From NCBI GenBank assembly GCA_029531795.1, contig JAPEIS010000011.1:2232001-2296000 (forward strand): 64,000 bases of DNA, read 5' to 3'. The translations under genes were made by a program, and so were the position numbers. The notes beneath the pieces are model-generated. The model had not been told where the DNA came from. It did no database searches and saw nothing but the letters and a program-made list of their open reading frames with translations. The stretch is from Sclerotinia nivalis. Lineage: Eukaryota; Ascomycota; Leotiomycetes; Helotiales; Sclerotiniaceae. Below, one piece after another: positions 10,692-40,712 of this stretch (position 1 is its first letter; each line of letters opens with the position of its first letter).

Positions 10692-10904
10692 TCACGGTGT
10701 TTGGGATCGAGCTAAAAAAGGGAGGATTAAGCAATCTTTTTCTTCTTTTGAATACTATCATTGTGGCATGTTATATCATTTTCCGGATCACCAATGCCTA
10801 GTTATTGTTTTTTCTTTGTCGGCATTTTGTTTAGATATTTTACTTGATGTTTTTGAATTTTAATACTTGCAAATTGATGGAAAGAACGGTGCGCAATAAG
10901 ACGA

Positions 10905-16871: not shown

Positions 16872-16889
16872 AAAAGAATATTTCGTATC

Positions 16890-17610: not shown

Positions 17611-17914
17611 AAAAAGTGAAAGTTTGACTGGCAAGTTTCTGTTGATAGAAATGTTTTATTAATTATTTTTGAGATTTGATTTTGGTAAGGTTATAGGAGA
17701 AAGTTTTAGCAATATAAATTTTGTTTCTGGAATGCACTTTGGGATAGGATTCACTAGTATAAAGATCATTAGTTTTGGAAGACATACATTCATCAGGACA
17801 CTTGAATAAATTGGTAGAAATCTTCCAATGTATTTTGAATTCTAGTTACATATGAAGGAATTGAATGAAGCCTATGTGCGGAATGAGGGGTAGGTTAGAT
17901 TTCTCGGTTCAAAG

Positions 17915-19542: not shown

Positions 19543-19650
19543 TGTGAATGAGATATTTGAAGAGGAATCTATTGTTTCAAGGAGATCGTTTTTGCATCGA
19601 TTAGAAGAGAAAATAGAAAACTTATCAGAGAGATGAGGGAAGTTAATTGG

Positions 19651-19833
19651 TTGGATTTTCGTTTGAAACCTATATTAGTTACGTGCGGGGTAATCCATTG
19701 TAGAAAAGAGATGAGTTTTAGACGATAGGGGTGTAGATTGAAGAATAGAACTGACAGGGTATTTATACCCGGTTCAGCACTAGATCTAAACTAAACTAAC
19801 GTACATATGACCTGATAAAATTACTCTCTTTAC
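19651..19833 (-). promoter_or_regulatory. 183-bp inverted-repeat copy A, carries a TATA box
   Basis: Reverse complement of 23173-23355, about 96% identical over the full 183 bp (about seven differences by eye). Read on the minus strand it contains GGGTATAAATACCC, a strong TATA-box candidate about 200 bp before the ATG of the 194-aa gene. Confidence 0.75.
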
Positions 19834-20697
19834 AATGCCAGTACGTGCATATACTTCGGGAAACTAGAATCGTAGAGAAATCAAAAGGGGAGGCAAAGTA
19901 AATAAAAGGAGTCTCGGGCGATTCCTTCTGGCAAGGTGGCCTTGAAGTTACCGGACCGAAATGTTTTGGTAATCTGGAAATTCCTCCTCATAAGGGGAAA
20001 TTAAATGGCCTGTTCTTGGCTCGAAAGGCTTGAGGTGATCTGTGTAAAAAGAACGGGAATGGTTCTCCCGTTTATTTGTGAAAGCTTATATGATTTGCTA
20101 TGGCTTCCAGCGAAACCCTTGACTCTTTTTTAGGTTTGAAAAGCATTGATACTCATTATGATTGTCACAAGGCTACGTGGTAAATCGCGTAAATGTAATA
20201 ATGAACTCATCAAATTTTTGCCTTTATCTATATCTCAATAACTCATCAGATTCTTTTCTCATTTATTATTTACTTCGGGTCCTTATCCTCTTCATCAACT
20301 TCATCTTGATCGGAAGAATCTGCAGAGTAGTATGCATTCCTTCATATATACATATCTGCCAGTATCGCTAATGAAGTTAGCAATCAAATCGAATAATCCT
20401 ATTTCGAGCCTTCAAGCTTCACTATTTACGCTTCAGGAGAGGAGTGTATAAAGTGATATACAAGGTGATACACATACACTGTTACATCTCTGCCATTATC
20501 GCTCACCTATATACAGTTTCGTTACAGAACGCAACCTTCTCATCTACAACCTTCTCCTCTTCATCCACGATATCTTCTTATCCGCGAGATTATACCATCT
20601 ACGATATCATCGATTTACGACAGCATTCCCTCTACAAAATCTTTCTATCTGCAACACCATCTAATCAAACAAGTTTTGACAATTATCTATCTATACT
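19834..20697. other. Intergenic stretch, no supported gene
   Basis: No frame with recognisable protein features. Its right part (20440-20690) is pyrimidine-rich with repeated ATCTAC-like words, as in a fungal promoter/5' leader of the gene at 20698. Confidence 0.45.
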
Positions 20698-20943
20698 ATG
20701 TCTGAGGAAAAAGAGGATTTTCCAAGCTGGGGTATCACAGAAAGTGACCACGACAGAAACATTGAGTTCAAGGGCAAATTGATCTTGATCTATAATAAAA
20801 CAACAGAGCATACACTGGTGGATAGGCTGGATGTCAATGATAGAGAGGATTTCACCATTCCGAAGGGCTATACATGTGAACTTTTTGGTTCTAGCACTGG
20901 GTCTTTTGCTAGGTTATCTGATATAACTCGAAAGAGCAATTAA
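20698..20943 (+). CDS. Small hypothetical protein, 81 aa
   Basis: An 81-aa acidic frame from ATG 20698, preceded by a long CT-rich leader typical of filamentous fungal promoters. The stop at 20941-20943 directly abuts the stop of the convergent gene at 20944, so the two transcripts must overlap at their 3' ends. The sequence is rich in Asp/Glu/Lys with a likely beta-strand core (about 22-60). No family is recognised. Confidence 0.45.
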   Translation: MSEEKEDFPSWGITESDHDRNIEFKGKLILIYNKTTEHTLVDRLDVNDREDFTIPKGYTCELFGSSTGSFARLSDITRKSN

Positions 20944-22993
20944 TTACAAGCTTATTTCCATTGGCTGCAATCCAAACATATCTCTCAATTTCTGACCAGA
21001 ATCCCGATCAACCATGATAGAGAATGTGATATCGTCATCATCTGTGCTAGATGTGAATGCATAAACACAAGCACAACGATGTCCCAACGCCGACTGGTAT
21101 TTCCTAGTGCGAATTACAGCTTGATAAAAAGAGTCTCCTAGAAGATGTAGATTCTCTATTGGTACATCCGAATATTGCCAAACCTGGCTTCGAACAGATT
21201 GAACTTGTGGTGACCATTGCAAATCAAACATTTGAATCATTTCGAATCCAGCCTTGCGATCAACAGTGATAGAAAATGTGACATCTTGCTTCCAATCTCG
21301 AGGGAACATTGCCACAATACATTGTTGATAATCCCCCAGACCTGATTGATATTTAGCCATCACAAGACTACGAAATGGTTCTTGAAGATTGTTGTTTAAT
21401 TTCTCTTTCTGTGGATTAGTAAATACCAATTCGATTTCTTGATTGATTGCTGTCAGCCTCGACTCGAAGATATACATACATTCATACTTACCCCTTTGTT
21501 TGTTTGTAGCTCCAATAGAGCTGTCGATAGTATGTCTCTCTACACCTTCCGCTTGAACTATCGTACTAGTGTTTGCACTCCCCAGAGTTAAATTCACAAT
21601 CGCTCCTCCTTGATTTTGTGTAATTTCCTTTGTCGACTGGGAAAGGGATGAATCGAGATCTGAAAATGAATTGATGCGCCTTTGTTTGCTAGATGGATCG
21701 CATGCTTCGGTTTGCGACTCTAAACCTCTCTTTACTCCTCTATTGCTTCCAAATTCAGCATGTTCACCAACAATAGAATCTTGTTCATAACTATTGAGTA
21801 CCGCTCCATTAGTGATTTGAATTGACGAGTTTCCAGCAGTCGGCAACTGCTGGCTCTGTGTGGACCCCGCAATGTAATCTGCTGCATTCAGTAATGCATC
21901 TATCGAATTGGGACTGCTAATGGATAAGTGCGGATCAGGTAGTGATAGTAGAACGGTCTTATGTTCGGTTCCCGTAGTGGTAATTCCATTCGAATACTGT
22001 GCTTTGATGGCTTGAAAGGCGGCTTCTAAGGTGGGTAGGAGCGAATAAATTTTGAAGGTGCAAAGTAGCTCATTAATCGCTTGAATCTCGAACACTGACC
22101 ACTTCTTATGTTCAAAACTATATATTGAATTCAGTAACTTATGTGCAGATACAAGAAATTCAAGCTTACGATTGAGAACTACCTCCTAAGCCTAGTAAAA
22201 GTCCTGCAGGTCTAATGAAGCTCCATTTTTCACCAAAACGCGCCATTCGCAATAATCTTTTTTTTCTTTGCGAAAAATCCTTTGGTGATACTTTTTGTGA
22301 ATCCCATAAACGATGTGCTAAGGCATCAATTGCTTGAGATCGAAATGGCTGAGCGTAATTTGCTGTAGAGGTAGTTCGTTTCTTCACTTTGGACTCTCTT
22401 CGTAATCTTTGTTCTTCTTTCTCGACAGTCTCGTAGATGGTGGTTAGAATAACCCTTCTTCGAATTGGATTCACTTTTTGCTCGTCCTCAATTTGTTCAT
22501 ATTGTTCGATGCAAAGTTTGAGAAGGTCAATCTGACTTGATTTATGTTGACATATCAGTAGCCCGTAAAAGGAAGAAGGTTCAGTAAGCCACTTGGATAC
22601 CATCATCTTGACTTGGGAGATCTCTTGTAAATTTCGATCCCATTGACGGCTGATATCCAGAATTTTGTGTATTTGATGATTTGATAGCCGTTGATTATTT
22701 GTAGAAATTATGGATTCTAACAATTGCTGAGAAGGATCGTGTAAGGGATCCTCGACGCTATTTTTAAGGTGCTTCTTGACTCTATGAAGAGAAGTATCTT
22801 CAAGGAGAGCGCTACGGAGGGAGCCAGCGCGATCTGGAGAATGAGCAAGTTCTTTCAGTGAAAGACCGACTTCCTGAATCCAACAAGAATCAGCCGACAA
22901 CTCTCGAAGTCAGGGTAATCAACCCACCGTATCGCCTGCATCGCAATAAAGATTTCCCAGCTCCTCGAGCTTAATGGCGATGGCTTCAGACAT
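20944..22993 (-). CDS. Hypothetical protein with duplicated C-terminal module, three exons, 647 aa
   Basis: Exons are 22993-22928, 22873-22170 and 22117-20944. Intron 1 is 54 nt (22874-22927) and intron 2 is 52 nt (22118-22169, donor GTAAGC, acceptor TAG). Both joins preserve frame and connect a helical N-terminal half to a C-terminal half that has no usable ATG of its own. The helical part (about 22-230) is charged and ends in a Lys/Arg-rich stretch. Residues about 290-430 are disordered and Ser/Gln-rich with a KRGLES...KQRRI basic patch that may be a nuclear signal. The C-terminus holds two related modules of the form KYQSxLG...C...D[VI]TFSIxVDRxxG...MFxLQ. No known family is recognised. 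Confidence 0.6.
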
Positions 22994-23134
22994 TCTGTTT
23001 TTCTGAGGTATATTAGATCAATTAAAGAATTGATACGTTTGAATCGAGTACATACCTCACTACTACAATTGGAACCCATCTTAAAAATAAAATTAAAGGT
23101 GAAGGAATCAGCGGCAGCAAATCTCGATCAAAGT

Positions 23135-23159
23135 ATTAAAGTTACTCAGTAACTTTAAT
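23135..23159. repeat. Palindrome, 12-bp arms, second copy of the 7568 repeat
   Basis: ATTAAAGTTACT (23135-23146), a single C, then its reverse complement (23148-23159), followed by CCTGGTTGCA. The same arrangement occurs at 7568-7606, with two extra central bases. Confidence 0.7.
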
Positions 23160-23172
23160 CCTGGTTGCAGCT

Positions 23173-23355
23173 GTAAAGAGAGTAATTTTATCAGGTCACA
23201 TATACACTAGTTTAGTTTAGATCTAATGCTGAACCGGGTATAAATACCCTGTCAGTTCTATTCTTCAATCTACACCCCTATCGTCTAAAACTCATCTCTT
23301 TTCTACAATGGATTACCCCACACATAACTAATATAGGTTTCAAACGAAAATCCAA
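23173..23355 (+). promoter_or_regulatory. 183-bp inverted-repeat copy B, carries a TATA box
   Basis: Inverted copy of 19651-19833. GGGTATAAATACCC lies at about 23238-23251 and points at the gene starting at 23610. Most of the roughly seven differences from copy A are G-to-A in this copy. Confidence 0.75.
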
Positions 23356-23609
23356 CAGCATTGGTCTTCCACTCTTATACTTCGTTCGATCAATCGGTTG
23401 AAGGGATAAATGACTTATTCTCGGATAATATGCAAAATTACGTGTCGCTCCCATGACAAATAATCGCGACACTTTGATAGGCCTCGGCAAATGAGAAGTG
23501 GTGTGATTTTTTTGTCATGAAGTCTTGGCGCTCTAGGCAGCAATCTACTTTAGATAGAAAATTTCCCAACCTTCCGTTTACTTTGTTCAACCTCTATTTT
23601 GTTGTAATC

Positions 23610-25577
23610 ATGCCTCAATCCCCACTTCCACTCAATCACGATACAACCAGAAATACGTTGCGTACGCATCCTTATTTTGACAAGACACCTTGTGACAAAT
23701 GGGATGTTGTGGACTTCTGTAATAAAATATACGAGGAATTGGGCTATGTGAAGTACAATATATCCAGTGTTCACAACTGCTGGCGGACATCCATACAACA
23801 CCTACAGAATAGCGAGGATCCCAAAATTGCTGGGGTGGCTAGTAAACTGCGGGCGGCATGGGTTCTTTCAGTAAGTTGATTCTCCGAGCTACAAAACTAA
23901 TATCTACGCATCATCTGTATCGCAGGATGCCTTCGTGGCGTCCTGGTCAACGGTACACCGAGGCGCATATCGCAGCCTGCCTTCGCGGCCGACTGAGAAA
24001 CGATTGTGTACTCTTTGGGTGTGGCTTCTTCGCGAAGACCCCTCGCTCCTGGGTTGCTGTTGACCTTCGTGGCCATCAGATTCACTAGCCCAGTCGAGCT
24101 TGATGTTTGTTAATAGGTACTCTTTTGACAGAGCCCGAAAAACGACCAGCAAAGGGCCAAGAATTTCATCAAATCAATAACGAGAAAGCGTCGACGACGC
24201 AATGTCGCCAATCATGGGCCTACTACTATCGCTATCAACCAAAGTAGTATTATGTTGAATTCGTCGCAAACAGGAACCACTATTATGTTAGTATTCCTTC
24301 CAAGGATAGTGGAATAACAACCATCGTTAACAATTCTATACATATAGTGGAGCTTCTATCTATCAAGATGACCCAGACACAAATTGTGCCGGTTCAGAAG
24401 CTAATAATGATCCCAATAGTCTGAACGCGACTGTTGACTCCAGCCTCGACAAGCAAGACTCACTGGCAATAGAAGTCTCCGACACAAAGAGGCTTCAAGA
24501 AATCCTTGGTTGCTTGGAGGATTCTCGTACGACTGTTACTAATGACAAGAAGATGTTACTCACCTATAGCAATGTTTACCTTCAAGATATCATGTTAGAC
24601 TATACCCGACGCACTGGCAAAGTTAAGCCAATTCATTTTGGTATCCTGGATGCCGAATCCATCACGACATTGGATCTCATGCGAGAAGATTGTGAGCAGA
24701 TCACAGACTGTGTTGAAGAATCACCGCTCCCTAGGTTTCCCCTAGAGTTGCTTCAGGCCCTCGAGAAGTATGAGAAGGTCAGTCAGTACTTTGCCTTTAG
24801 ATTTTCGGAGGACTAATGATTGATGACTTTGATAGGCGAATTCCTATGAGCACTCATGCCAAATCGAACGCACAATGTCTCATAGGGGTGATATCAAATG
24901 GATCGGTGATGTTTCGTGCCACATGTGAATTATACACCATCTTCGCCTTATATCATAGGCTGATTTTAGAGCAGTGTCCGGCTTTTAGAGAACTCCGGAA
25001 TGATCTTGGATGAAGAGCTGAGTGAAGGGGTTTGGGATTGTTTGGTTTATCCTCGCTTCCTAGACGAAGTTTTCTGCGAGATTCCAGAGCTTGTTCTTCA
25101 ACGGTAAACCCTTATCCCAATTCTCTGCTCTTTTATTTATCTGCTTTGGCTAATAATCAACATCGTTGCAGCAAAGAAATTTCTCTCTTAGCAACTCGCT
25201 ACCAACCGTACTCCTACTTCATCAACGAACCTCGTTACGATGCAATCGCACGCCGTCGTAAGCTATCTGCTGACGGCAGCTCTCAATCTTGTTATGAACT
25301 GTTTGTTTTGGAGACAATTCGCAAATGGGAAGGGGAACTTGCTACGAAATGGCTCAACGATTTTGATAAGCTTGTAGGTGGCTTGAGAGCGATGCTGTGC
25401 CACATTGGCGAGTTGGTAGAAAACGATTCTACAGTCATGAAGAAGATAAAGGTGGTTGGCATACTACAAGCTGGTTAGGATATTGTCTGTTGCTTAGTAC
25501 TTCTTTGCTAATCATGTTAGGTCGTCGACACCAGCTTCTTATTATGTCTTGTATTGGCAAGGATGTATTTTACTTGA
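23610..25577 (+). CDS. Hypothetical multi-exon protein, about 499 aa
   Basis: A hand-built model has eight exons: 23610-23870, 23926-24052, 24117-24243, 24348-24777, 24836-24924, 24975-25103, 25172-25451 and 25521-25577. Every junction uses GT/AG, and the sum is 500 codons including the stop. Good coding texture supports it, for example CDKWDVVDFCNKIYEELGYV in exon 1, WDCLVYPRFLDEVF in exon 6 and SCYELFVLETIRKWEGELAT in exon 7. Exon 3 has an alternative reading and donor that also keep the frame, and the last exon is the least certain. The protein appears soluble and helical; no family is recognised. It sits behind a copy of the 183-bp TATA-bearing repeat, as does the gene at 18958. Confidence 0.45.
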
Positions 25578-25889
25578 AGCGTGGTCATATACATGAGCTT
25601 CCGGGAGAGCTTAAAGATATGAAGAAGTTACAATACATCTTCGCGTCATACTGGAAAGCACGGGTATGTACCTTGGTTCCCTCGTTCTCTTCGAAATCTC
25701 ATGCTCTTTGTAGGAAATTGTTCGATGTGGTGTTCGGCTTCTGGAAGAATTTTTGCAACAAAATTTAGAGCAGGATCAAAAGGCTATGAATATTTTGTCT
25801 CCAAACTTCCTTTAAATTTTCTTTGGTTGATAATCACAATATAAATGAAATATATAATGCAAATTATGTTTAAAACTATGTTATGAACC

Positions 25890-26225
25890 ATAGTACCTGA
25901 GGACTTTAGGCTCAATTGTCAGCAGACATTAGTAGAACCTCGGGGATGGAACGATGGCATGTGATAGATAGATTGATAGAAAGTCGAGCAGTCTACCCGA
26001 GATCGACTGATAGACTGTCGAGCAGTTTATCCAACAGAGAAAGAAGGTCTATATAAGCAGAATGTATTTCTTTATTATATAGAGCTTCGTGCTCAACTTA
26101 AATAGTAATCTCAACCATTAGTTACTTAGTTACTTCTCGATTGGAAACAATTGTTCAATCCTCTGCTTGACTACTTCAATACACAAACCCTACGGCACTC
26201 CACCACATCCACATGACTAGAGAAA
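25890..26225 (+). repeat. Diverged solo LTR-like repeat
   Basis: Shares the core TATA and leader of the LTR at 5081-5383 (GGTCTATATAAGCAG at about 26046, then AGAGCTTCGTGCTCAA) and a CTGCTTGACTAC-like block near the 3' end. The ends are too diverged to place exactly. Confidence 0.55.
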
Positions 26226-27149
26226 TTGACGACATACCACTCATCCTAAATTCTATACTATACAGAGCCTTTAACTCTTGTCTCTTTAAGCTCAATTACT
26301 TTTTTTTGTATGCCAAGGTATCTCTCTGATCGTTATTCGGTCTCCATTCTCGCTCAATTGCTACTTTAAATTTCGCAATTGTTCTCCTATCAAATGTCCC
26401 CCATATATCTATTTTTAGTAATATACAGGCACTTCTTAGTGCCCAAAGAGCCGCTCCCTTATTTTGCTACTCTTCACCGGTCCCAAAAGGACACTCTCGC
26501 ATCTCTATGTTCTTGTGAGCTACTCCCCTAACTATCTGTAAACTTCCATCTCTGGTATACCCGCGCCGGCAACGGCTCACAGCGACCTAGCGTAGCTCAA
26601 TCGTCAACTATCTGAAAGAAATCACTTAGCCACCAACACCTCTTGATGAATACAGTACTTGGTCGAGGAGTACCGTCGCACAGGGTGTGGTGGGTACAGA
26701 TCAACCATCCTCCCTATTTGTAGTGGCAAATTGAAGTAACCTTTATGCGTCAATTGTCCACTTGTACTGTCCAATTTGTGATCTCTTTCAATGATTCAGA
26801 ACATACTAAACATTGCTAATCTGTGCTGCGATAATGTACATTAGGTCATTTTCCCACATTGATGAACAAAGTAGGAAACGTCTAAAATAATATATTATCT
26901 AATATCCCTATGATATGTCTTAGATAAGTTTTATGTATTTGTATTATCTATCCCGGCTCACATTTCTGAATAGATGATAGGTTAAATAGGGATTAAACTA
27001 GAAAACCCAATCTTTAAACCTGTTACTAATGGAACCGGCCAAGAGCACAATTGTTAATCATTATAGATTATTTCCTGGTACACCCCGACCCCCCAATGAT
27101 CCTGTCATACTCCGTAATAAAACAATCTATAGTATAAAACATAAAATAA
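26226..27149. other. Intergenic stretch with a dispersed-repeat trace
   Basis: No supported gene. 26500-26567 resembles 33420-33484 (shared CTGTAAACTTCCA and GTATACCCGC), so part of it is a diverged copy of the repeat that forms the spacer in the 33-kb inverted repeat. Confidence 0.45.
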
Positions 27150-27923
27150 TTAGAGATAAGCCCTAGATCCTGACGACGATCTTTCGCGTGATGACCTAAA
27201 CTCAGGTATGTCTCTCATGTAAGATCTTGAGTTTGAGCCCGATTCGGATTTTATTCGAGGGGTTCGTCTGGAGCTTGAATGGATATTTTCATTCGTATAT
27301 TTCCTGAGTCTTGCACCCCTTTCTAACCCTTCTTCATCACTATATGTAAGGTCGAATGGGCGCCGAAAGCTCCGCCCACGGTCCAGAGCAGGATTTGTGC
27401 GTTTGGAAACTCCGGCATATTGTGAGGTGGTAGATGGTGGAGGTGAGCTTACAGGTGGAGATGAGGTGGTGGCAGGTAAGAATGAGTTGGCAGCAGGTAA
27501 GGACGAGGTGGCGGCAGGTAAGGATGAAGTTGCTGGTTGTGCGGTGGAAGGTGGGGGAGTATATTGTATAGCCCGAGTAAGACCTGTCGCCATAACTTCG
27601 TTGTGTGTTCTGTAATCGCCAGGACCTGTCGCAATAACATTCTGGGTACATCGTTAGCATAAATGCTTTGTTTCATACTATATAAAATAGAGAATAGAGC
27701 GCACATCAATAGCAGATAATATAGGCAGAGAAGAAGACTCTTCAGAACTATAAATACATGTCTGCTCATCATTTTGGACTACCACCCAGACTCTAGTACC
27801 TGGGCACAACACAGCCAACTCATCGCCTTTCTTCATGACAGTTTGAGTTCGATCATGGCATGCCCTCCTTCGTCTACGTTCATCACCAACAATAGGTGCA
27901 AGCCTCCTGGTATATTTGGCCAT
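27150..27923 (-). CDS. MADS-box-like protein, two exons, 236 aa
   Basis: Exon 1 is 27923-27705 and exon 2 is 27641-27150, joined in phase 0 by a 63-nt intron (27642-27704) with a TGCTAACGA branch site. Residues 1 to about 65 are Arg-rich and then carry a block resembling the MADS/SRF DNA-binding fold: VMKKGDELAVLC, a hydrophobic strand (VWVVV), and an IYSSEE turn. In classical MADS domains the matching block is LLKKAYELSVLC followed by a beta strand. The N-terminal basic part is shorter than usual. Exon 2 encodes a disordered tail with Pro/Ser/Ala repeats (SSLPAAT-type) and an Arg/Ser-rich end. If real, it is a sequence-specific transcription factor. It lies 480 bp from the FRE gene, transcribed away from it. 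Confidence 0.6.
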
Positions 27924-28296
27924 CCTGGATGTATGAAATTTTGGTATGATGTTCTGAAAGAAATGAAGCTGCGAAACTGATCTCGAAAGTTGAAAACTGA
28001 GCTTTCAGTTAATCGGTAAACCGTTTGGCTTTTTAAAAGGTATTAAACGTTGGTGATATTAAACAAAAATAGAGTTCTTGAAGCCGCGCGCGTAGATGCG
28101 GGCGTTGATGCGGGCGCTTATGCAGCCTGTCATTCGTTCCTGAAAGCGAAAGCCGAACATCAGATTACGGGAGTTGGTTAAATGGGCCATCATGAATACA
28201 TGGGCTACTACTACTACATCTATGCTTCCAGGTTCTCAGTAGTAAGTACATTTTTTTAAAAAAACAATACGCATTTCATTTCCCTAAAAACTTATC

Positions 28297-28384
28297 CAAA
28301 CCATCATCTAAACCATCATCCAAACCATCATCTAAACCATCATCTAAACTATCATCTAAATCATCATCCAAACTATCATCATAA
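28297..28384. repeat. 12-bp tandem repeat upstream of the FRE gene
   Basis: About seven units of CCATCATCTAAA with C/T variants end 18 bp before the FRE start codon, so they lie in its promoter or 5' leader. Confidence 0.85.
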
Positions 28385-28401
28385 TATCCTTTTGTGGAGT
28401 T

Positions 28402-30422
28402 ATGAACTTGACGCAGTGGTACGCAATCTCTTTAGCAGCAATTGCCGTCCTCCTGATCCTTTATCGAATTGGCTCCATTAGTTCTGCCTTTCTTATAGCA
28501 CGGTTCCAGGTACTAGCATTAAGGCATCTGGTTTATCCGTTATTTGTTCAACGGAGATATTGGACTGGTGTTACAAGATTGCAAGGCTTTCTTGTAGGGG
28601 CATATCTAGGTATCAACGGCTTTTGTATGGGTCTTGGGGTAAAGACCACGTCCGATGTTATTTCTCGAGCGGGAATTATGGCCTCGGTGAACCTTATACC
28701 GCTGTTCTTGGGTGGGCGGACTAATGCGTTGGCCAATTTCATTGGTATTTCTATTCATTCTTATTATATAGCACATCACTGGATCGGTCGGGTTGTGATT
28801 ATTCAAAGCCTTTTGCATGTCACATTTGTTTTAGCTGCTGGCCAGCCATGGACCTTTAACTCATCTCAAATCTCTGGAATTTCTGTAAGTAAAATAAAGT
28901 CATACTTGGTTCACTTCTAATATAGATATAGGCTGTGTCAGCGTTATCGCTCTTACTCATTACATCACTATTTTTTTTGCGGAGATTGATGTTTGAGGTA
29001 TTCCTCAAAATTCATTTTTTGTTAGCGTTTATCGTGGTTGTTGCCCTATTGGAACATGTATCACACCTTGGGTTGACTCGAAGCATGTTCCCGATAATTG
29101 CATTATCCTTGTGGTCCTTCAATGCTATAATGCGGTGGGGAAAGATAATTTACTATAACTTTGGTGGTGTTGGTCATTCCTTGACACCACAAGCCGATAT
29201 TTTCCATTTCTATGATGACTCGAAAACGAGGACCGTCAGTGCAATAAGATTGACAGTCCTACTTAGACGGCCTATGAAAATCAACCCAGGTCAATATATG
29301 TATCTGTTTCTCTCGGATATGGGTGTACGCCGACGGTTCCAAGCGCACCCATTCGTGATTGCATGGTGGGACGATTCCTTGAAAGCTACGAAGGTTTCTT
29401 TCTTGATCGAGCCCAGCAATGGCCTAACCTCAAAACTGATTGGACGGGGCTCGCTCCGTAGTGTTGTGATGGACGGGCCTTATGGAAAAGATTTGCGATT
29501 GGATAATTTCGAGACGGTCATTCTAGTGGCAAAGGGAATTGGAATTGCTGGTATCATTCCTTATGTTAGAAGTCTGACATATCGTAGAGTGAATAAGGAT
29601 AAAAATTACGATTCTTATCGACGAGGTCTTATCACACGAAAAATCGATCTGTATTGGGTCCTTGAGGATAATTGTCAGGAAGATTGGATTTCGGATTGGC
29701 TTGTGGATCTGCAGATGCGAGATTCAGAGAAGGTTGTGATACATTGCAATATGCCTAATTTCCGTACGGAGAAGTGCTGACATACTCTTACAGCTTATTT
29801 TGAACTGCACTTGTTTCTATCCACGAAAAATGACAAAACCCCCTCCAATTGTGGAAGATCCCCATTGGAGGTTTGTATATCAACAGCAGGCAATACCGAT
29901 AATCGAAGGGTTCATAACTAAGCAGGTACAAAGATCTGCAGGAAAATCTAAAGTCGCCGGTAGGACCTAACAATCAATTCCCTTTCATTCAAGAATCAAA
30001 CTGAATTTAGTATAGTTTGTGGAACATCTGGATTTACTCATATACTCCGCAATATTGTCATCCAAACGTTGAAGGAGTATAAAGATGTCGAATTCGCGGA
30101 GGTTGAATATCAACCACACGGAGTGCATCATATCCATTCTAGGGTCACTTCCAAAAACTGGGATCAGATAGAGATTGAGGCTACAAATTTGCCTTCTCAA
30201 TTAACTTCTAGAGAACGATACTTGCAGCGATCACAACTTGGGGACACAGCAAGTTCCACATACTTCAAACAAAAACTTGCAAGAAAGCTTGAGAGCAATA
30301 AAGACAGGCTGGTGGAATGGAGACCCGGGGCATCAAACCATCTCTCAACTTTGGAACAGAGAGGTGAGAAAGCAGATAATGTTCAAGGCCGGGATAAAAT
30401 AAATGTGCGAGAGATTGTTTAA
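28402..30422 (+). pseudogene. Ferric-reductase-like (FRE) transmembrane oxidoreductase, frameshifted
   Basis: FRE proteins pass electrons from NADPH through FAD and two hemes across a membrane to reduce metal chelates. Exons are 28402-28884, 28932-29959 and 30016-30422, with in-frame splices. Exon 1 encodes several membrane helices and the heme-ligand region (HHWIGRVV and a downstream SLLH). Exon 2 has the remaining helices (one with KIHFLLAFIVVV), a GQYMYLFL and AHPFVIAWW FAD-binding region, and NADPH-domain segments. Exon 3 has the terminal VCGTSGFTH nucleotide motif and an EVEYQP block where the family normally ends; this frame runs about 90 residues further. The frame breaks near 29775 (stop at 29778), and the rest of the domain continues in another frame. 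A single-base change explains it. Either the gene is dead or the base is an assembly error. Confidence 0.8.
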
Positions 30423-31373
30423 ATCTCAAGTCAAAATTCTTTGATTTCAATACTAAAACCAGAATTTCATATGCTTGGAAGTACTATTAGTATAAAATGT
30501 ATCAATAGATATAGTAATAGCTATAGAGTTTGCACCAGAACCCCACATCCCCGCAAAATGCGGTTCAGTTGGCCAATGATCAGTTGTTTAGAAATACCAA
30601 TGGTTTTTTTGTTTATAATTTCATTGGTCCAATTTGAAGCATGTGCTACGGGACTTTTGCGCAACACGGGGATTCCGAAATCAACTTAGCTCATCCCTAA
30701 ATGTACTAGGTTGCCAAAAATAGGCTCCCCCACCTACATTTTCAACCTCATCGTTGCCACCCCCACCCTCATTTTCAACATCATCGTCGCTCCGTCATCC
30801 TTATCATCATCCTCTCCTCTATTTCTATTTCTATTTCAATCCTGAATTCTTATAGGCTCTGAATCCTTATAGACTTTGGATTTTTTATAGGTTTTGAATC
30901 TGTATATATACAGGTTTTAAGGCCCTGTGATCTTGATTTATTTGTCGAATTAGTATACTGGGGTACGAAAAATATTATTGAGTAAGCTAAGTTCGTTTGC
31001 GAATAGCCTCATTTTTGCCTGAACGATATGCCTTTCTTACTTCCTTCCCCATATAACATATTAGTCATGATTTACTAGGTACCTATCTACGTTTGAGATA
31101 CAAAAGATGTTTTAGTTTTGCATTGATTGGACAAATGGTAACTTTTGTACCTAACGACTACCGTAATCCATTTACCGTAATCCATATACCGTAATCCATT
31201 CACTGTTAATGGTATTCGTATACCATCTTTAGATATTTTGATATATAACAAGATATACAACCCCAAGATCAGTAGCTCAACAAAAACCTAAATACTACAA
31301 GATAAAGATAAACACTCGCAAGAAGCCCCAATCTCACAAGAAATCCCAATTTCGCAAGAAACCCCAATTATAC
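30423..31373. other. Intergenic stretch with short tandem repeats
   Basis: No supported gene. It contains three 14-bp units of TACCGTAATCCAT type at about 31158-31200. Confidence 0.5.
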
Positions 31374-31452
31374 GTGAGTACAAGTCTTTCATCATTTGGA
31401 TATTCATTTAACAAATCATTAGAAACATATGTCTATTTCCATTCTTCTCTTT

Positions 31453-31930
31453 CAGAAAGACAAATAATGTCATATATAATGATGACTTACCAGCATACCG
31501 CCCTATCGATGAAGAACCAATACAACCTACCTCTCGATCCTACAAATACACCTTTGATATCCCATCAGCTGGAACCATGACAATCAATGCAAGAAATGAT
31601 GGAACCTTGATTTTTCACCACGTTCCTACCATTACAACTGATGCCTCACATAGGGTCTCACATGGAGGTATTGCAGGAGATTTGAATGATGGGGACACTA
31701 TTGTTGGTATGAGTGCTGAAGCAAGGCAAGAGAAGTTGGACCAAACAAAGTTGAGACTTCAGGAAGCAAGGGCTAGGTTTCAAGAGTCAATGGACCGTCT
31801 GAATCAGGAATTAACCCTTGTGAAGGATAATGACTCAGTGACTTTGTTAGAGGATGAAGAGGAGGGAGGTTTGACCGGGGATCGGTTGTTTTTCAAGGAC
31901 AATGATTGCAAGGACTTGGTAAAAATTTAA
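31453..31930 (+). CDS. Small coiled-coil hypothetical protein (3' exon)
   Basis: The frame reads without a stop from about 31453 to 31930, although its first ATG is at 31577 (117 aa from there). Upstream, 31373-31451 looks like an intron (GTGAGT donor, TTTCAG acceptor), so an earlier exon in the 31290-31372 region is likely. That region encodes repeated SQE-P-I-like units but in an unresolved phase. The central part contains a heptad-rich helix (about residues 52-85 from the ATG), followed by an acidic tail. No family is recognised. Confidence 0.4.
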
Positions 31931-32206
31931 GATGCTTGGCCTTCACGGTATCAGAGTACTTGAAATGAGTGTAGCTTAATAGAATGGGATCGGTCATTGC
32001 TTTTCTTTTCAATCTTTGTTGTTATATCGCTTGTGTTTAATCTTTTCCAATATCACCTACACCCGTGATCTCACTCAGCTGCTCCTGCTGTGACGAAGGT
32101 CCATGTAGTACGATTATAGAGATCAACACTTAGAATTAAAAGCTACGGAATGAAGGAGCAGTTACAGGAACTCTATAAATACAAGAGAGCGAGCGGTAGC
32201 GGAGCG

Positions 32207-32683
32207 CTAGTCGTTCGGCATCCAATCGGCCACCGACGCAAGGCGTTTCCGAAGGGTTTTCAACTCGATGGACCACCAAGGCTTCGCTTTCTTGGTTGTT
32301 TTGAGTTTCGGAATGCTGGCTTTCGCTGATTTGGTGATGATTTGAGTGAATTCTCTAGCAGCTTCGTCCAGTATTTGTATTAACTGGCTTTGATCAGAAA
32401 GGGCATTAAAGGAATCAGATTCTAAAGTAGAAAGATCGAGATAATCCTTTAAATTCAGGATTATAGATGTCGAGATTTCTGTTTTGAGTATTAATGTAAA
32501 TTTATCCCAATCTGCTCGCTTTGTATTGAATCTTGCTAACGGAGCAATATTTGTTGAACAGATTCCTGTGCCTTTCACTTCAAATAAGATCCCTAGATGA
32601 TCTGATCCAAGATCAGGAAGGACTTGCCAATCAATAATATTGGAGGATATCGCTTCAGTAGCTAAAGTAAGGTCTAGCAGTGA
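32207..32683 (-). mobile_element. Tad-like LINE fragment: endonuclease C-terminus and linker
   Basis: The minus-strand translation shows the end of an APE-type endonuclease (DLTLA... followed by DLGSDHLGILFEV, where GSDH is the conserved catalytic-domain motif). A linker follows with the AKPWWS...EL..LRKRL pattern that precedes the reverse transcriptase in fungal Tad-type LINEs. The reverse transcriptase is absent, so it is a truncated relic. Confidence 0.75.
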
Positions 32684-33338
32684 TAATATTATATTTGCAA
32701 ATCTATGAGTTTTTTACAGTGTATTCAGTGAGACTACAAATATAAGTAAGAGTAACCAATTCTTACCATGCTTTCCCAGATACAAGATGTCAGTCTCAAT
32801 ATCCTTTGAGAAGGTTGCCCCCAGGCAAAAACAACCTTTCTACACCTATTATCCTGTTTGCTCCCTAAGCCTACCCGATATCTCCATTGCCAGCTGCCTT
32901 ATACCCTATTGTAGACCGATATGCGCATCCGTCCTCTCGAGCCGTATAGACAATGTCACTGTCGCTGCCATTATACGCTACGCCCTGCGGCTTGTGCACC
33001 GTTTCGCGTTACCTTGCCGGATCTCTCCTGCACAACAAGGCCGACCATATCTTGCAAGCTTTGCTATGTCTTAACCCCTAGCCAGGCAGCGTAAAACACA
33101 GCGTTTCCAGCTCACTAACCAAAGCGCAACCTGCAAAATCCATTCCCCCAGTGTATAGTTTGTAATCGATGATACCGAAGGTTGGGAACGCGTCGTATAT
33201 GGGTATCGTAAGGTGGCCTCTGCCAAAGCTCATCCGCTGCTGTGATATCTGCCGAATGCTTCGCACAAGAATGAAACTTTGTTAAAAACGTCCCCCTCGT
33301 TCGAGAGTTCCTCCGCCGCCGTGATACCGCTCTTGTAC
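32684..33338 (+). repeat. 655-bp inverted repeat, left arm
   Basis: Reverse complement of 33901-34555 with numerous transitions. This arm keeps C and G where the other has T and A, so it is the less mutated copy. It abuts the minus-strand LINE fragment. Confidence 0.8.
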
Positions 33339-33900
33339 ATTCGTAGAGCAAAGTGCCAAAAACGTCCCTCCATCCCTAATCCACCCATACCTCCGCCGGC
33401 CTCAATAAGACTCTATCACAACCTTTGTACATTCTCGATCACTCCCCTTAACCACCTGTAAACTTCCAATCCAGTATACCCGCAGATTGTACACATTGTT
33501 GGATCGTGAAAACTCTGCATGCTAACGCCCCAGAGGTGCCCTGTCAATCGCCGACACAACGCTTTCCTTCTCAGGCTCTGCTCCCACACAGATTCGTAAA
33601 GGCAGTCCGCTTTGAAATGCTCCTTAAAGCATTTCTCAGGCTCTGCATCCCACTGCAGATTCGTAAAGGTGGTTCCGCTTCGAATTCCGTCGTTGTTTCG
33701 TTGATTGTCGGGTAGTTTTTATCTCCATTCGACTGATAAATCCTCTGTTCCGGGCCCAATTCACGATACCTTCACACCCAGTACCGCTCCTTTTTAAAGC
33801 ACGACCTTTGCCCAGCTCCAGTCTGATTCAATCTTGGCTCTGTAAATAAATTACAGGTTCGTAGGATGCACCACGTACAGGTGTTGAATCATCGCATCCC
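33339..33900. repeat. Spacer of the inverted repeat, with a 65-bp tandem duplication
   Basis: The spacer contains two head-to-tail copies of a 65-bp unit starting TCAGGCTCTG at 33571 and 33636. It also carries a segment (33440-33484) similar to 26500-26567. No coding frame is evident. Confidence 0.6.
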
Positions 33901-34555
33901 GTACAAGAGCGGTATTACGGTGGCAAAGGAACTTTCGAATAAAGGGGATATTTTTAGCAAGTTTCATTCTTATAAGAAGCATTCGGCAAATATTATAACA
34001 ACGGATAAATTCTGGTAAAGGCCATTTTACAATATGTATATACAATATATTCCCAACCCTTTGCATTATCGATTACAAATTATACATTGAGGAAATGGAT
34101 TTTGCAAATTGCACTTTGGTTAGTGAACTGGAAATACTATATTTTAAGCTGCTTGGATAGAGATTAAGATATAGCAAAGCTTGCAAGATATAGTCGGCCT
34201 TGTTGTGTAGGAAAGATCCGGTAAGGTAACACAAAACGGTATACAAGCTACGGGGTGTAATATATAATATTAGCGATAGTAATACTGTTTATACAGTTTG
34301 AAAGGACAGATGTATGTATCGGTCTATAATAGAGTATAAGGTAGTTAGTAATAAAGATACCGGATAGGCTTAGGGAGCAAATAGGATAATGGGTATAAAA
34401 AGATTGTTTTTGTCTGGGGGCAATTTTTTCAAAGGATATTGAAACTGATATTTAGTATCTAAAAAAGTATAGTAAGAATTGGTTATTCTTACTTATATTT
34501 GTAATCTCATTGGATATATTGTAAAAAACTTATAGATTTGTAAATATAATATTAT
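33901..34555 (-). repeat. 655-bp inverted repeat, right arm (AT-shifted)
   Basis: Pairs with 32684-33338. Where they differ this arm is consistently richer in A/T (for example CAAAGCGCAACCTGC in the left arm reads CAAAGTGCAATTTGC here), the pattern expected from RIP. Confidence 0.8.
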
Positions 34556-36268
34556 TTCTGTTAAAACCTTGCTTTTCGGAAGATCCTTGGTATCTTCAAA
34601 ACATCACCAATTAAGCCAATGGAGGTAGAAGCTGCAATATGCCCTTCGGAAGTAAGGTTGAGTACTGGAATCAGACAATATGCTTATAGATTATTGAAGA
34701 TCTCGCCTTCCCATCCGGTAAATTCAATTATACGCAAATTAGCTATCGAAAATGCAGAACAGAATATAATAGCAACCCCCTAAAGAAAATTGCCGAAATC
34801 TACTCAGCTCGAAAAGATCATAAACTCAATCGAGGAAGATTTCGATTTATTCACTTTAGAGAAGATCGATCATTTCCATTTCCCCCCTTGGAAAAGAGAT
34901 ATTCTTTACAAAGTCAATATCAACAAATTGCCTAAGAAAGATACAGCAATTATCCACAATCTAGTCTTCAAATATAGAAGCAAAAATATCATAACAATAT
35001 ATATAGATGCTTCTTCAACCTTGGAAGGGATAGGGGTAGGCATCGGAATTGTTGTTATTTCAGCCAATGACCAAATTACCCATAAAGAAACGTTCAACAT
35101 TGGTGTAAACCAATTAGTATACAATGGAAAGCTTCTCCGAGTTATCAGAGCAATCGAATACGCTAACTCCATTGCTCAACTAGGCGACAAATTCAAAGTC
35201 TATTCAGACAATCAAGCCGAGCTCTATCGATTGAAAATACCATCCGATGCCCCTGGTCAATCTTACCAGATCAGAGCAATCAAAGCTGCAGAATCTCTTA
35301 TACAAAAGGGAGCCGATATCTCCCTCAATTGGGTTCCAGAGCATACTTTAGTGAAAGGAAACGAATTAACTGATGCCCTTGCAAAAGAAACTACAAAATT
35401 AAGGTCATCATCAAATGAAACCAATTTCGCTTCCTTAGGAATGGATATCAAAAGAGCGAAAACAAAGGATTGGAAAACCCTTCTCAATTCATCAAACTCA
35501 ACTTATTCAAATTCATACCCTTGGAAGATCAGCTCAAAGATCGGAATCCCAGAGAATACCAAAAGGAACCATATTAGTGCTCTGTTTCAGCTCAAAATCG
35601 GTCATGGATATTTCAAATCCTACCTAAAACGATTCGGAATTTCATCAAATGATATTTGTAGGTGTAGAAAGAAAGAATCACCTGATCATCTCCTGCTCAG
35701 CTACCCCTTATACAAATCAACAAGAAAACTACTCCAAAAAGACAATCCTACCTCTCGATTAACTATGAAATACCTGCTTCACACCAAAGCAGGAATCATT
35801 AAAACCCTCGAATTCATAAACGCAACGAAAATAGCCACTAGATCATGGCATCTCACTAGAATACAAGAAGAGGAAGAAGAAGAAGAGGAAGGAAGAGAAA
35901 AAGAAGAAGAAGAAGGAGAAGAAGAGTTAGAAGGGGAAGGAATGGAAGCCGGAATGGAAGTCGGAATAGAAGAATAAACCCTTCGGAATCCGATTCACAT
36001 AATATTTCATTTTTCATATTTCATTATTTTCCTTATTTTATACGGTAGCGTTATAAGGCGGGTTTTATTCCCTAAGATTAGTTTTCACTTCCCCTATTCA
36101 AAAATCAAAAGATTGAGCTTGCCTCGATCTCTTCAATTTTGTATTAGCTACGGCCTAACCAGCTAACATCCCATCATTTACTACTTGTTAAAAGCTTACA
36201 AAGCTCCTAGCCGTCTTAGATAATCTTAGATAGTCTTAGACTCAGTGTAGACGTTAATTCAATCAATC
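34556..36268 (+). mobile_element. Tad-like LINE fragment: RT thumb, RNase H and 3' tail
   Basis: 34566-34785 encodes the end of the reverse transcriptase (SPIKPMEVEAAICPSEVRLS and a HPV segment), ending in a stop at 34783. The frame 34790-35977 (395 aa) carries an RNase H domain: YIDASS, YSDNQAEL, and GNELTDALAKE with the final Asp. A C-terminal CRCRKKESPDHLLLS zinc-like motif and a Glu-rich tail follow. The element ends in short CAATCAATCAAT repeats near 36265, as fungal LINE 3' ends do. The 5' two thirds are missing, and its orientation is opposite to the 32.2-kb fragment. Confidence 0.8.
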
Positions 36269-36345
36269 AATCTACCTGAATGGCCGCTTAAGTTCTATAC
36301 AGGAGGGCGTCATGGATCTCCTCACAATTATATCCTTTCAAGTCG

Positions 36346-38307
36346 TTAAAACGCACAGTAATTCTCTGCTCCTTTTCCACAAATAATCCATTCCCTCTTT
36401 TGTAAATTATCATGCGGAGTACTTGTAGTAGTACAATATGCAATCAATCCTTCAATTGCCAGCAAGATAGTTTTGTCATCAAATACTTTAGGGTATAAAA
36501 TGTTGGAAAGTTCGGGTCGAACGACGGGCGGAATCGGAACTTCAGACTCAGACTTTTCGCTGGATTGGGACGGTTTCGATAGGTTCTCGAAATGATTCTC
36601 TCTGACTTTTCTCAAACCATGTTTCCTTATATGAGTCTTTCGCCTTTCAATGCTACGTCGAATAATGGCAAGCTTAGCTCGGGTACTCTCTTTTTGACTG
36701 GGTAGATCTCGAAGTTCTCGTTTCAACTTCTTTCTAGATGCAAGCAGATCTTGTATGTCTTTATCTTGGTCGTAATACTCTTTCTTTTGATCTGCTGAAA
36801 GCTTCACCGGGGCTGTAGGGTCTCGTTTAGAACGCATATTTAATGTCTCGGTCCTTTCTGAGCGCGGTTGTTGCATTCGATAAATATTCCCAGTATCAAT
36901 ATTCACCTTTCGAGATTGATAATATTTCTGAAAAATTTTATCTGATGGGCCATTATGGCCCATAAGTTGCTTTATACGAGAGTTATCAACCTTGTCTAGA
37001 AGATGATTAATACATTTCGCTATATAGATATATTGAAAAACTTACTATCATGAAGAGCGTTGCTCATTCCACGCCGAATACAGTAAAACGTAAAACGTTG
37101 TCTAAATCCCGCTGCTGCAACGACACGTTGAGCATCTGTGGTCACAGAATTACTGGAAATCGCGAAAGTAGAGGAAAGTTTTCGACTACCTGGTCCTTCC
37201 ATCCTTCGAAACAAAGGTATGTACATTTTGCTTTGTTTGAAGATAATTGGGATCTCCATTGTGTTTGATACCTCCCTCTCAAGTAGTTGAGAAGGTGTAG
37301 AATAATGTTCCAATGCATCATCCATGAATACAAGTGCCAAAATCCAAGAAACAACACAAGTACCTGGAACATCCCTCAACAAATATGATTGCTCGATGCT
37401 GTTATCTTGTTAGAACAAAACTTTTAGAAAACATTCCCTATAATCTCACTATTTATTCTTCTTTCCCCTTTCGTTCTTTCTGTTGTCAAATTTGATTTCC
37501 AATCTGAATCGAGGGCTTGAGCTCGAGCCTTGTGCTGGAAGGAGAAAAAGATTGAGATCCTGTAGATATTGATTATTATTCTGTACTATTATAGATACTT
37601 TTGTAGTATAATTACCTTATAGCACAACGCGACATTACCTTCACGATAAGAGTCTGATCTAGTGATTGCACCAATTCGTTCTCCATCGTCTGCAATCAAC
37701 ATGAAGATACATCCCAGCTGTATTCGATAGCGATTACAGCGATATTCATGTTCGTCCTGCACCGTCAAGTAAAGAATCATGATCTCGATATCGATCCAGT
37801 CGGTACACTCTTTATCATACTCAGCATCTTCGAGACCCAGCTCCTTTGCCAAATCTGTCGACACGTACTATTGAAGTTAGTTGTATAAATTGTAAATCAG
37901 ATTAACAATACTTACATATCGAGCAAGATCAAGAACAGTATCAGGAATTTTATAGTGATAAACTGCATCATACATACATCCAAACCTTCCTACTTTATAT
38001 AAAAGAGTTTTGATAGAAAGCTTTTCATTGAGTTTCCCTTTGGCATTGCTAGCATGCCACATAAGGAATGTTTCGATAGTTTCAAGATCGGGAAAAGCAT
38101 CAGGTATAATATCCTGTTGGAAACTAAGCAAAAGTTAGTATGTTTGTGATATTATCTGAAGTATCTTACTTGCCTTTCCCAAAGTTTTCGTAAACCAGTA
38201 TACAAAACTTTCGTAGGGGTTGCAAGAGACCTTCCTTGAAAAGGTATCTCAACTTTTTGTGAATTTGCTAATTTTCGAGCCTCGCGATATGCTAATAGAT
38301 CATTCAT
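36346..38307 (-). CDS. DUF3435 tyrosine recombinase, Starship captain, six exons, 566 aa
   Basis: Captains are the tyrosine recombinases that move Starship giant transposons; they sit at the element's 5' end and point inward. Exons are 38307-38170, 38113-37916, 37867-37616, 37559-37450, 37398-37046 and 36995-36346. Five introns of 48-56 nt all have GT/AG ends, and all joins keep frame. The family's box I is present (DDGERIGAITRSDSY, with Arg176). It is followed by the CYKDLNLFLL block, box II (FTFYCIRRGMSNALHD, Arg341), MGHNG (His364) and the FQKYYQSR segment with the catalytic Tyr (375 or 376). An R-R-H-Y set is therefore intact. After residue 390 comes a charged, coiled-coil-like C-terminal region. 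No stop or frameshift is seen. It lies on the same strand as the DUF3723 gene. Confidence 0.9.
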
Positions 38308-38322
38308 TGTTCAAACTTGACA

Positions 38323-38396
38323 AGAGATTGATGACGGAAAGAGATTGATGGCGGAAAGAGATTGATGGAGGAAAGAGATTGATGGAGGAAAGAGAG
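38323..38396. repeat. 17-bp tandem repeat just upstream of the captain
   Basis: Four units of AGAGATTGATGGAGGAA type (38323-38390) plus a partial unit start 16 bp before the captain's ATG. They would fall in its leader or promoter, or in the element's subterminal region. Confidence 0.85.
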
Positions 38397-38908
38397 AAAA
38401 TGACAAGATGATATATATACTTAGAATGCTTAATATTGTACCGTTCTCATGGAAGTATTCCAAGTGGGTACAGGTGCTGGGAATAGAAGAATTCCAGGTA
38501 GCTGCTAAGAATTTCACCGCTTTCGTTTTCGTGAGAATCATTTTCGTGAGAATCAACGTTGGGAATAGCTTCAGAATGATTACATCTCGATTTCGAAGTA
38601 AAACAAGTAACAAAAAGGGAATACATTTGTAACATTCAAGAAATACAATTAATGGAATCATCCTTTGGAAAACAGAAAATGTGAAATCGTAAATCCAATG
38701 TACTGGTACTGTTTTACAGCAATCTGTATTGTAGAAGATGGATACTGAAATCCAAAATCCAAAATCCAAAATTCGAAATTCGGTTTTACGAAAGTTGAAT
38801 GTTTAAAGACGGAAAATTTCAGGCACGAATTTTGGAAATGAATGGTACGTAAAAGCGGCACAATGATGGGTATATAGATTTGGAAAACGACTAACCGTAA
38901 ACCGAAAA
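38397..38908. other. Putative Starship 5' terminal region
   Basis: No gene is seen between the captain's leader and the tRNA. Short repeats are present: TTTTCGTGAGAATCA twice near 38525-38555, and AAATCCA units at about 38750-38770. CGTAAA/TTTACG words, which include the TTAC often found at Starship insertion sites, occur at about 38784, 38848 and 38897. The exact end cannot be placed by eye. Confidence 0.35.
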
Positions 38909-38993
38909 TCTTTGATGGTCTAACGGTCATGATTTCCGCTTGTCATCATCTGACAAAGCGCGGGAGACCGGGGTTCGACTCCCCGTCAGAGAG
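38909..38993 (+). tRNA. tRNA-Asp (GTC) with a 13-nt intron
   Basis: A 7-bp acceptor stem (TCTTTGA with TCAGAGA, one T-G wobble) is followed by a D-arm. The anticodon stem is TCCGC/GCGGG with GTC at 38942-38944, and the T-arm is CGGGG-TTCGACT-CCCCG. The discriminator base is G (38993). The anticodon loop is 20 nt long. It becomes the standard 7 nt if 38946-38958 is removed, the normal intron position one base 3' of the anticodon. TGAC in the intron can pair with the anticodon, as in other nuclear tRNA introns. Confidence 0.9.
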
Positions 38994-39559
38994 TCACTTG
39001 TGATCCTGAGTTCGTACAATTTTCCTTTTTGGCATTTTTTATCTTTCAAAATTCATTTGCTTTGGAATATTTTCGCTTCTGAATAAATGAAGGGGTAAAA
39101 TGGCCAAAGCACCTGCAGAATTTTAACTTTAGCGACAAATGGTAGGCGGTGAAACCGGTACTGCCATTTATTGGGAAAACAACTTTTGCTGCATTGGACG
39201 AGTGGGTTAGCTCAATCAGCTTCCTTTTCATCACTTATTCCGTTTCCAATATATATGCTCTCCTAGGTAACCGAGTTCTTTTCTCAGTTCTATTACATTG
39301 TTCTTGCGAACGAAATATAAAACATGCATTCTCTTTATACAAATGTCCAAAGTGGGATCATCTACGCCAATGGAGAGGGGCCCACCGCAAGTGTGGAACT
39401 ACATACCGCGATCCCTCCACCTAAATATCCCTAGTTCTTATGAGCTCGAAAATTTCCGACTCAGAAAATTTGGAATTATTGGTCACCAAAAATCTCCTGT
39501 GAGCGCGATGAGCTTGGAGAAATAGAGGCGTGGCTCGAACCAACCGATTATCCTTCATG

Positions 39560-40712
39560 ACTCTAGCGAATTCAATCGGCACATGGCTTCACGGGCTCCT
39601 AGCAGCTGCCTCTGGGTTCGCGATACTCCTCAGTAGGTATCAACAATGGAACGGTTCGAGTGATCATAGTAGTCTTTGGATCAGAGGTGTACCTGAAGCT
39701 AGAAAGTCTATAATTTCTGCTTCCATTCTGCAGCATTTAAAGACCACGGAACTTGTCCCTGTTCTATCAAGTCTTTTTTTTTGTCTGTAACTTGAAATCG
39801 AATCAAAAACCACGAAATTTTATTTTTGATTTCTTGGCACAGCTCTTACCTCATAGTGTTTATCTCCAGGTAACCCTGAACTCCGTGGTAAACTCGAAGT
39901 TGGAGCTTTTTTTTCATTTTTCGGACGGATAATTATGGGAGTATTTACTCCTTGGTCATTCTTGGGCTTAAAAAGTCTACTATGTTGTTGGTGCGATGGA
40001 TTAGATGAAAATGGAAATCAAAGATGAATTCTTGGATAGACTTAGTAGTCTGGCAACATACCGGCCACAGCACGTCAAAATCCTTATGGCCAATCGACCA
40101 AATCAACATTTGCAGCTTACATTAAAAAATGCTTCTATCGTTTATATTAGTTTCGGGAACGAAATTGTTGGTAGAGGTATAACCCTTTTTGTTTTTTATT
40201 GTTTGAGAACTGTATTTCAAGAATACAATCCAGATCTACAAACGTCGGTACAATCGGACATCTGCGATAGATCGGCCGGACTATCCTTGTACGCTCGTCT
40301 TCTGCTACGCCAGCTCATGCGAGCGGTGATCTCAAAAAACAAAATTTGGATATCGAAGAGATTGCCAGTACTCTTCCGGTCCATATAGGGTATGTACAGT
40401 AATCTGAATCCGGAATTGACACAGAAGTTCAAGTATCCCTTCTCAAGGCGGCGGGGTTTTCTTCTCGTCCTCTTCGTCTCAATGAACTTGCAGATCTATT
40501 GGCATTTGTTCACCCTACACACAATTGTGAAGTCAGCTTATACTCTCTTACTTGAGATTATCAAAGATGACATGATCCATATTATTCATCACTCATTCGC
40601 TGAGTTTATTGTAGATATTAATCGAGCTCAGCATGAGCCTTCTGGAACGTTTCCTCAGTTTCCTGTCCTTGATCAAACTCTTCCTGCTGCTGCTGCTGCG
40701 CGGATTGTTTGA
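39560..40712 (+). pseudogene. NLR (NACHT NTPase) relic
   Basis: NACHT-type NLRs are fungal nonself-recognition and cell-death regulators. The piece at 39620-39790 resembles the start of a NACHT domain (SLWIRGVPEARKSIISASIL). Its P-loop is damaged, since GVPEARKS lacks the Gly before Lys. 40005-40200 holds the RPQHVKILMANRPNQHLQ sensor-like block. 40430-40540 reads SSRPLRLNELADLLAFVHP, typical of the winged helix after NACHT. It is followed by MIHIIHHSFAEFI near 40580. These blocks fall in at least three frames with stops between them, so the gene is dead. No repeat domain (ankyrin or WD40) follows. Confidence 0.65.

Follow-up and report, generated by a model that had tools for sequence, protein, structure and literature searches.

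The locus

The analysed window comprises 64,000 nucleotides of Sclerotinia nivalis (positions 2,232,001 to 2,296,000 of contig JAPEIS010000011.1, here C11). Its left part belongs to a large transposable element, the captain gene of which lies close to the border with the host sequence, and this border falls inside a tRNA gene:

1..38930, minus: part of the element inside the window, continuing left to C11:2144437 (window coordinate -87563)
36346..38307, minus: captain gene, DUF3435 tyrosine recombinase, six exons, 566 aa, located at the 5′ end of the element and directed inward
38307-38170, 38113-37916, 37867-37616, 37559-37450, 37398-37046 and 36995-36346, minus: exons of the captain gene
38908..38930, plus: 23-bp border repeat, corresponding to tRNA-Asp positions -1 to 22; second copy at C11:2144414-2144436
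38909..38993, plus: tRNA-Asp(GTC) gene, complete, spanning the 5′ border of the element, 72-nt mature tRNA plus intron
38931..38993, plus: host-side remainder of the tRNA-Asp gene, from position 23 to the end
38946..38958, plus: tRNA intron, 13 nt, between positions 37 and 38
38996..39600, plus: host flank right of the tRNA, with one match in a genome search, itself

The captain gene

The first-pass annotation had described this gene as six exons with GT/AG splice sites encoding an uninterrupted 566-aa protein, and the model was borne out to the base: the frame is open throughout on the minus strand (38307-36346), free of internal stops and frameshifts, and all five introns, placed by homology and splice signals, are 48-56 nt long and run from GT to AG. 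The splice pattern matches that of the homologues P0001 (S. nivalis), P0002 (S. sclerotiorum) and P0004 (Botryotinia calthae), the first of which is the closest database protein (93%, compared with a 559-aa model of the captain). A gene model with two exons merged and without exon 4 was enumerated and then dropped. The frame is not a chance occurrence, because comparison with the intact captain of a related element on another contig (C4a, see below) gives Ks 0.068 and Ka 0.022, a ratio of 0.33.

The assignment to the DUF3435 recombinases was likewise upheld by a profile search: the Pfam DUF3435 match reaches E=1.9e-38 (133 bits, cut-off 25.8), and a match to Phage_integrase at residues 306-372 stays below threshold (22 bits, cut-off 27.1), both scores referring to the 559-aa model, which differs from the 566-aa model at intron 3. 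The catalytic residues are at the positions claimed, namely R176 (GERIGA), R341 (CIRRGM), H364 (MGHNGP) and Y375/Y376 (QKYYQS); across four aligned homologues, R341 and Y376 are fully conserved and H364 varies. In P0002 (sscle_05g041070), a Tyr occupies the H364 position and RCG replaces RRG beside R341, and this homologue is therefore probably inactive. A profile search of solved structures gave a single chance match (E 0.31), and a predicted structure of P0001 from a 4-row alignment was discarded (mean pLDDT 35.8).

Borders and extent of the element

The start codon of the captain lies 623 bp from the border of the element, and transcription is directed into the element. An insertion edge to the right of the gene had been expected just beyond 38.3 kb; such an edge does exist, but at 38930, where similarity to a second related element on C4 (C4b) ends. 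Here, a 23-bp sequence is located that recurs as an identical direct repeat at a distant position on the same contig. A genome search for this 23-mer returned 11 matches, all exact though three mismatches were allowed, and the reversed control pattern returned zero. The 11 sites comprise seven tRNA-Asp genes and four element borders outside tRNA genes:

C4:1198378: border between C4a and C4b
C4:1284979: border at the end of C4b
C5:312401-312423: lone border
C11:2144414: far border of the window element

At these four borders the 23 bp stand alone, and the remainder of the tRNA is absent. The element-side sequences adjoining them (C11, C4a, C4b and C5) are homologous in all four cases and end in GTGTAA directly at the repeat; the element therefore extends from C11:2144437 to 2270930, which is 126,494 bp from repeat to repeat, an extent based on border repeats, 3′-end homology and lengths. 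An 81-nt 3′-end query found only the C11 and C4a ends and missed the more diverged ends of C4b and C5. The 138-bp 5′ end, in turn, is present four times in the genome and directly adjoins the 23-mer in every case. When 601 bp of 5′-terminal sequence were compared with 370 bp from the 3′ terminus, no terminal inverted repeat was detected; the top match was a direct one (10 bp, E 0.16), and the top inverted match covered 12 bp (92%, E 2.6).

DUF3435 genes are present at 17 places in this genome (33 matches, grouped by eye), four of which are of the window kind, and solo DUF3435 genes are common according to excerpts of PMC12134995. The window gene could thus be a solo captain or part of a small Crypton-like element, with the repeat 126 kb away due to coincidence or rearrangement. 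However, the sequence adjoining the far repeat shows homology to the 3′ ends of three further copies, blocks of cargo are shared with C4a and C4b, and accessory genes are present, which makes this explanation extremely improbable. Moreover, a Crypton is short and carries little besides its recombinase, unlike the 126,494-bp window element with its cargo. The sequence evidence supports the first-pass annotation in its view that the gene is a Starship captain; both ends of the Starship that it heads are mapped, and long cargo including DUF3723 and ferric-reductase genes fits the same identification.

Cargo

The following features lie inside the element and within the window:

13281..16889, minus: DUF3723 gene, Starship accessory, 1203-aa open frame
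28360..29780, plus: pieces of a ferric reductase (FRE) gene (28360-28917 and 28932-29777), Starship accessory, shared with C4a and C4b
29964-30419: conserved open frame without Pfam match, following the FRE pieces
34565..36272, plus: dispersed repeat matching RNase H, adjacent to the captain's 3′ end

DUF3723 genes were found at two places in the genome, the window element and C4a (from three candidates), and the block carrying this gene is inverted in C11 relative to C4a. The dispersed repeat beside the captain may be LINE-like. Further open frames, located in the element to the left of the window, match Ulp1-protease, kinase and EST1-like domains. Neither NLR nor PLP genes were among the 30 frames and proteins chosen for Pfam comparison, which covered part of the element and only a minor part of C11:2144837-2192000. 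When 78,930 bp of the element were compared with the C4 copies, 27,129 bp aligned to C4a (mean 80.8%) and 11,532 bp to C4b, counting matches of at least 400 bp and including dispersed repeats.

Several observations concern other mobile or repeated components of this region. A second, distant DUF3435 gene (C11:2170475-2171830, minus), consisting of three pieces of which the last has a stop, is located inside the element, 26 kb from its far end, and one Starship may accordingly be nested in the other. Remains of a retrotransposon with RT_RNaseH and Integrase_H2C2 matches lie at 3608-5152 (plus) of the window, also inside the element. The open frames at window 8961-10691 (plus) and at L037:5095-7140 (plus) both resemble a frame at C4:1179063-1180934; the L037 frame, inside the element as well, has an Est1 DNA/RNA-binding match.

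The tRNA-Asp gene at the border

No tRNA was detected in the window by ARAGORN run without introns or by Rfam at the gathering score. With introns, ARAGORN labels the window gene as Phe(aaa) by means of another intron placement, and the six other loci as Asp; the mature exons of the window tRNA are identical to those of five of these six loci. A pattern search of the genome found seven tRNA-Asp genes (C1, C3, C4a, C6, C8, C9 and C11), all of which are complete in their 5′ and 3′ parts (7/7 each), so that none is broken. The mature sequence is the same in six loci and has one substitution in C4a. All seven genes contain an intron of 13-14 nt, which varies among loci more than the mature sequence and could therefore serve as a partial locus tag in expression tests.

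The sequences upstream of these genes fall into two groups. At C4a, C9 and C11, the tRNA is directly preceded by the 5′ end of the element. At C1, C3, C6 and C8, the element is absent and the upstream regions differ from one another, save for short A/C-rich motifs; these four unoccupied genes serve as paralogous empty sites. Features of such an upstream region appear at the far end of the window element, where the flank carries tRNA-Asp-type upstream sequence (CCACTTCAACAA...) with the spacing found at C1: the flank upstream of the repeat reads CCACTTCAACAAATCAGCATAAAAC, and the unoccupied gene on C1 has CCACTTCAACAACAACTATAACAAC, in which motif and spacing are similar. Judged by its sequence, the far flank would be the displaced start of the original tRNA-Asp gene. 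Joining this left flank to the tRNA remainder yields one uninterrupted tRNA gene. The first ~89 of the 200 bases to the left of the far repeat are a dispersed repeat, and the rest had no other match among the best 40 of 396 candidates. The far end on C5 is like the tRNA-Asp upstream region of C8, as compared by eye.

The whole tRNA-Asp gene might alternatively be cargo carried at the end of the element, with the true edge beyond 38993. The window copy and C4a do align past the tRNA, to 39029, and short stretches are common to some tRNA 3′ flanks; yet such stretches occur among the unoccupied genes too, and C1, C3, C6 and C8 hold the same tRNA without an element. The four other borders with the 23 bp only, the single-copy flank at 38996-39600 and the resemblance of the far C11 flank to a tRNA upstream region also speak against carriage of the gene, which is considered very unlikely. 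In the host flank to the right, an ALG10 gene (DIE2_ALG10) is located at window 45265-46467 (plus).

Related copies and a tandem array

Three further captains of the window kind are encoded in the genome: C4a (C4:1130902-1132833), C4b (C4:1198986-1200943) and C9 (C9:810335-812300). Three of the four captains are found at tRNA-Asp genes. By eye, the 13 other, more distant DUF3435 places all lay at least 40 kb away from the tRNA and 5S genes among the matches listed (62 tRNA matches, from the best 63 of 2986 candidates and without the tRNA-Asp genes, and 39 5S matches).

The C4 copies, with element lengths of 68,187 bp (C4a) and 86,601 bp (C4b), are arranged head to tail and joined via the 23-mer (C4:1130191, 1198378 and 1284979). 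Past the repeat at C4:1284979, a third 5′ end follows (71% over 202 aligned positions, 87% over 123), and the array therefore consists of at least three units. The 3.2 kb beyond this repeat contain no captain match, and the 23-mer search of the genome did not find a host flank beyond the array.

The junctions between elements bear on the origin of the repeat. If the 23 bp were a target-site duplication newly generated by every insertion, the element would carry no attachment site and would not spare the tRNA by design, and the junctions would look the same as those expected from a carried site. However, where two elements adjoin, the 23-mer is exact, even though the 5′ ends next to it differ by 6-7%. 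Tyrosine recombinases, moreover, exchange strands between matching sites and do not fill in staggered cuts, which also counts against fresh duplication. On balance, this origin of the repeat appears unlikely.

A proposed mode of integration

The best explanation of these observations, held with high confidence, is that the 126.5-kb Starship of this captain integrated by site-specific recombination into the tRNA-Asp(GTC) gene and preserved the tRNA in doing so. A single copy of the 23-mer would travel with the excised element and serve as its attachment site; the captain would recombine this copy with the matching 23-mer in a tRNA-Asp gene of the host. At the captain-end junction, the element-side repeat would supply positions 1-22, including the A-box region (about tRNA positions 8-19), and the rest of the tRNA, including the B box, would come from the host. 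The gene would stay whole because the end repeat of the element equals the first part of the tRNA. Genes transcribed by Pol III have internal A and B boxes; with both boxes retained, transcription of the tRNA by Pol III could therefore persist. The original start of the tRNA, together with the flank upstream of it, would be displaced to the far end of the element. A usable 23-mer would remain at the tRNA after each insertion, and further elements could therefore enter and form tandem arrays.

More broadly, the family probably represents a Starship lineage of the Sclerotiniaceae that is characterized by conservative, gene-restoring integration at the 5′ part of tRNA-Asp genes, a carried 23-bp site, superintegration and excision through one and the same reaction, and tandem islands at tRNA genes like those of prokaryotic integrative elements, a generalization made with some reserve. 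If it is correct, tRNA-Asp genes in this group of fungi would stand ready as docking sites for the cargo of giant transposons.

Comparison with known systems

Starships are regarded as carriers of traits from one fungus to another. Like other Starships of the Pezizomycotina, including Osiris of the Enterprise family, the window element has a DUF3435 captain at one end, DUF3723 and ferric-reductase genes, and direct repeats. The accessory set described in excerpts of PMC12506042 comprises NLR, PLP, FRE and DUF3723, and the Starship Sanctuary has a 6-bp repeat according to the same source. Of 20 high-confidence Starships in A. fumigatus, 19 carry direct repeats, which are 2-12 bp long, and 18 carry terminal inverted repeats; direct repeats of more than 6 bp generally accompany 5S rDNA (PMC12153272, in excerpt). 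Measured against these excerpted figures, the window Starship differs in its 23-bp repeat and in that no terminal inverted repeat was found, a feature that is frequent and is not treated here as defining. The target of Osiris, 5S rDNA, is an RNA gene as well; its insertions are described in passages of PMC12153272 as fragmenting the 5S copy, whereas the window Starship leaves its tRNA whole.

The mode of integration has its closest parallels in prokaryotes. Archaeal pTN3-like integrases, according to excerpts of PMC8371274, target the 5′ half of a tRNA gene and leave the gene restored, and tandem integration occurs. As far as these excerpts go, the window Starship resembles pTN3-like and bacterial tRNA-gene integrases in having an attachment site in a tRNA gene, in the restoration of the tRNA and in tandem integration, and it resembles pTN3-like elements in the 5′ position of the site. 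The likeness is one of mode and is drawn by analogy, with no membership of the prokaryotic groups implied. A restored tRNA in prokaryotes, moreover, relies on an upstream promoter, unlike a Pol III gene with its internal boxes. If the proposed reading is true, a tRNA-sparing Starship would be the eukaryotic counterpart of tRNA-borne bacterial islands, and it would help to account for the tolerance of 100-kb insertions into a gene family that is essential and multi-copy.

In eukaryotes, tRNA genes serve as safe sites for the dictyostelid retrotransposons DGLT-A, TRE5 and TRE3 and for yeast Ty3, which integrate upstream of tRNA genes at a distance of ~15 or 50 bp, or downstream of them at 100 bp (PMC5006619, in excerpt). 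The window Starship shares this preference, but would recombine inside the tRNA gene instead of integrating beside it as these excerpts describe.

The word “tRNA” is absent from the main texts of PMC12153272, PMC12134995, PMC11623301, PMC12289983, PMC12506042, PMC12257634, PMC12720139 and PMC12047768, and in PMC13373834 it appears only within a gene name. No report of tRNA targeting by Starships was found in the main texts, titles and abstracts of the Starship literature searched, and as far as this search extends, the element is new both in its target and in sparing it. Two practical uses follow from the 23-mer: its occurrence outside tRNA genes provides a rule for finding such elements and arrays in any assembly, and the 23-bp site together with an intact captain offers a tractable recombination assay.

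Mobility, decay and lone ends

The intact captain and the identical end repeats are, from their sequence, compatible with present mobility of the window element, for which the chances are put at about even. Of the four captains, the window copy and C4a are intact when the frames are read at equivalent exon places, and the other two are decayed: C4b has lost its start codon and contains stops, and C9 contains a frameshift and stops. Changes of the type C>T or G>A make up 106 of the 169 private changes of C4b and 68 of the 102 of C9; the corresponding figures for the intact captains are 31 of 70 (window copy) and 20 of 49 (C4a). This pattern is only suggestive of decay of the C4b and C9 captains by repeat-induced mutation, as the dinucleotide contexts are mixed.

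Two places in the genome hold single ends of the family. On C9 (23-mer at C9:809725-809747), a 5′ end is located at the tRNA and no 3′ end was found; at C5:312401-312423, a 3′ end of the family lies beside a tRNA-like upstream flank, where neither a 5′ end nor a tRNA was found. One possible reason for these lone ends is a translocation between two insertions.
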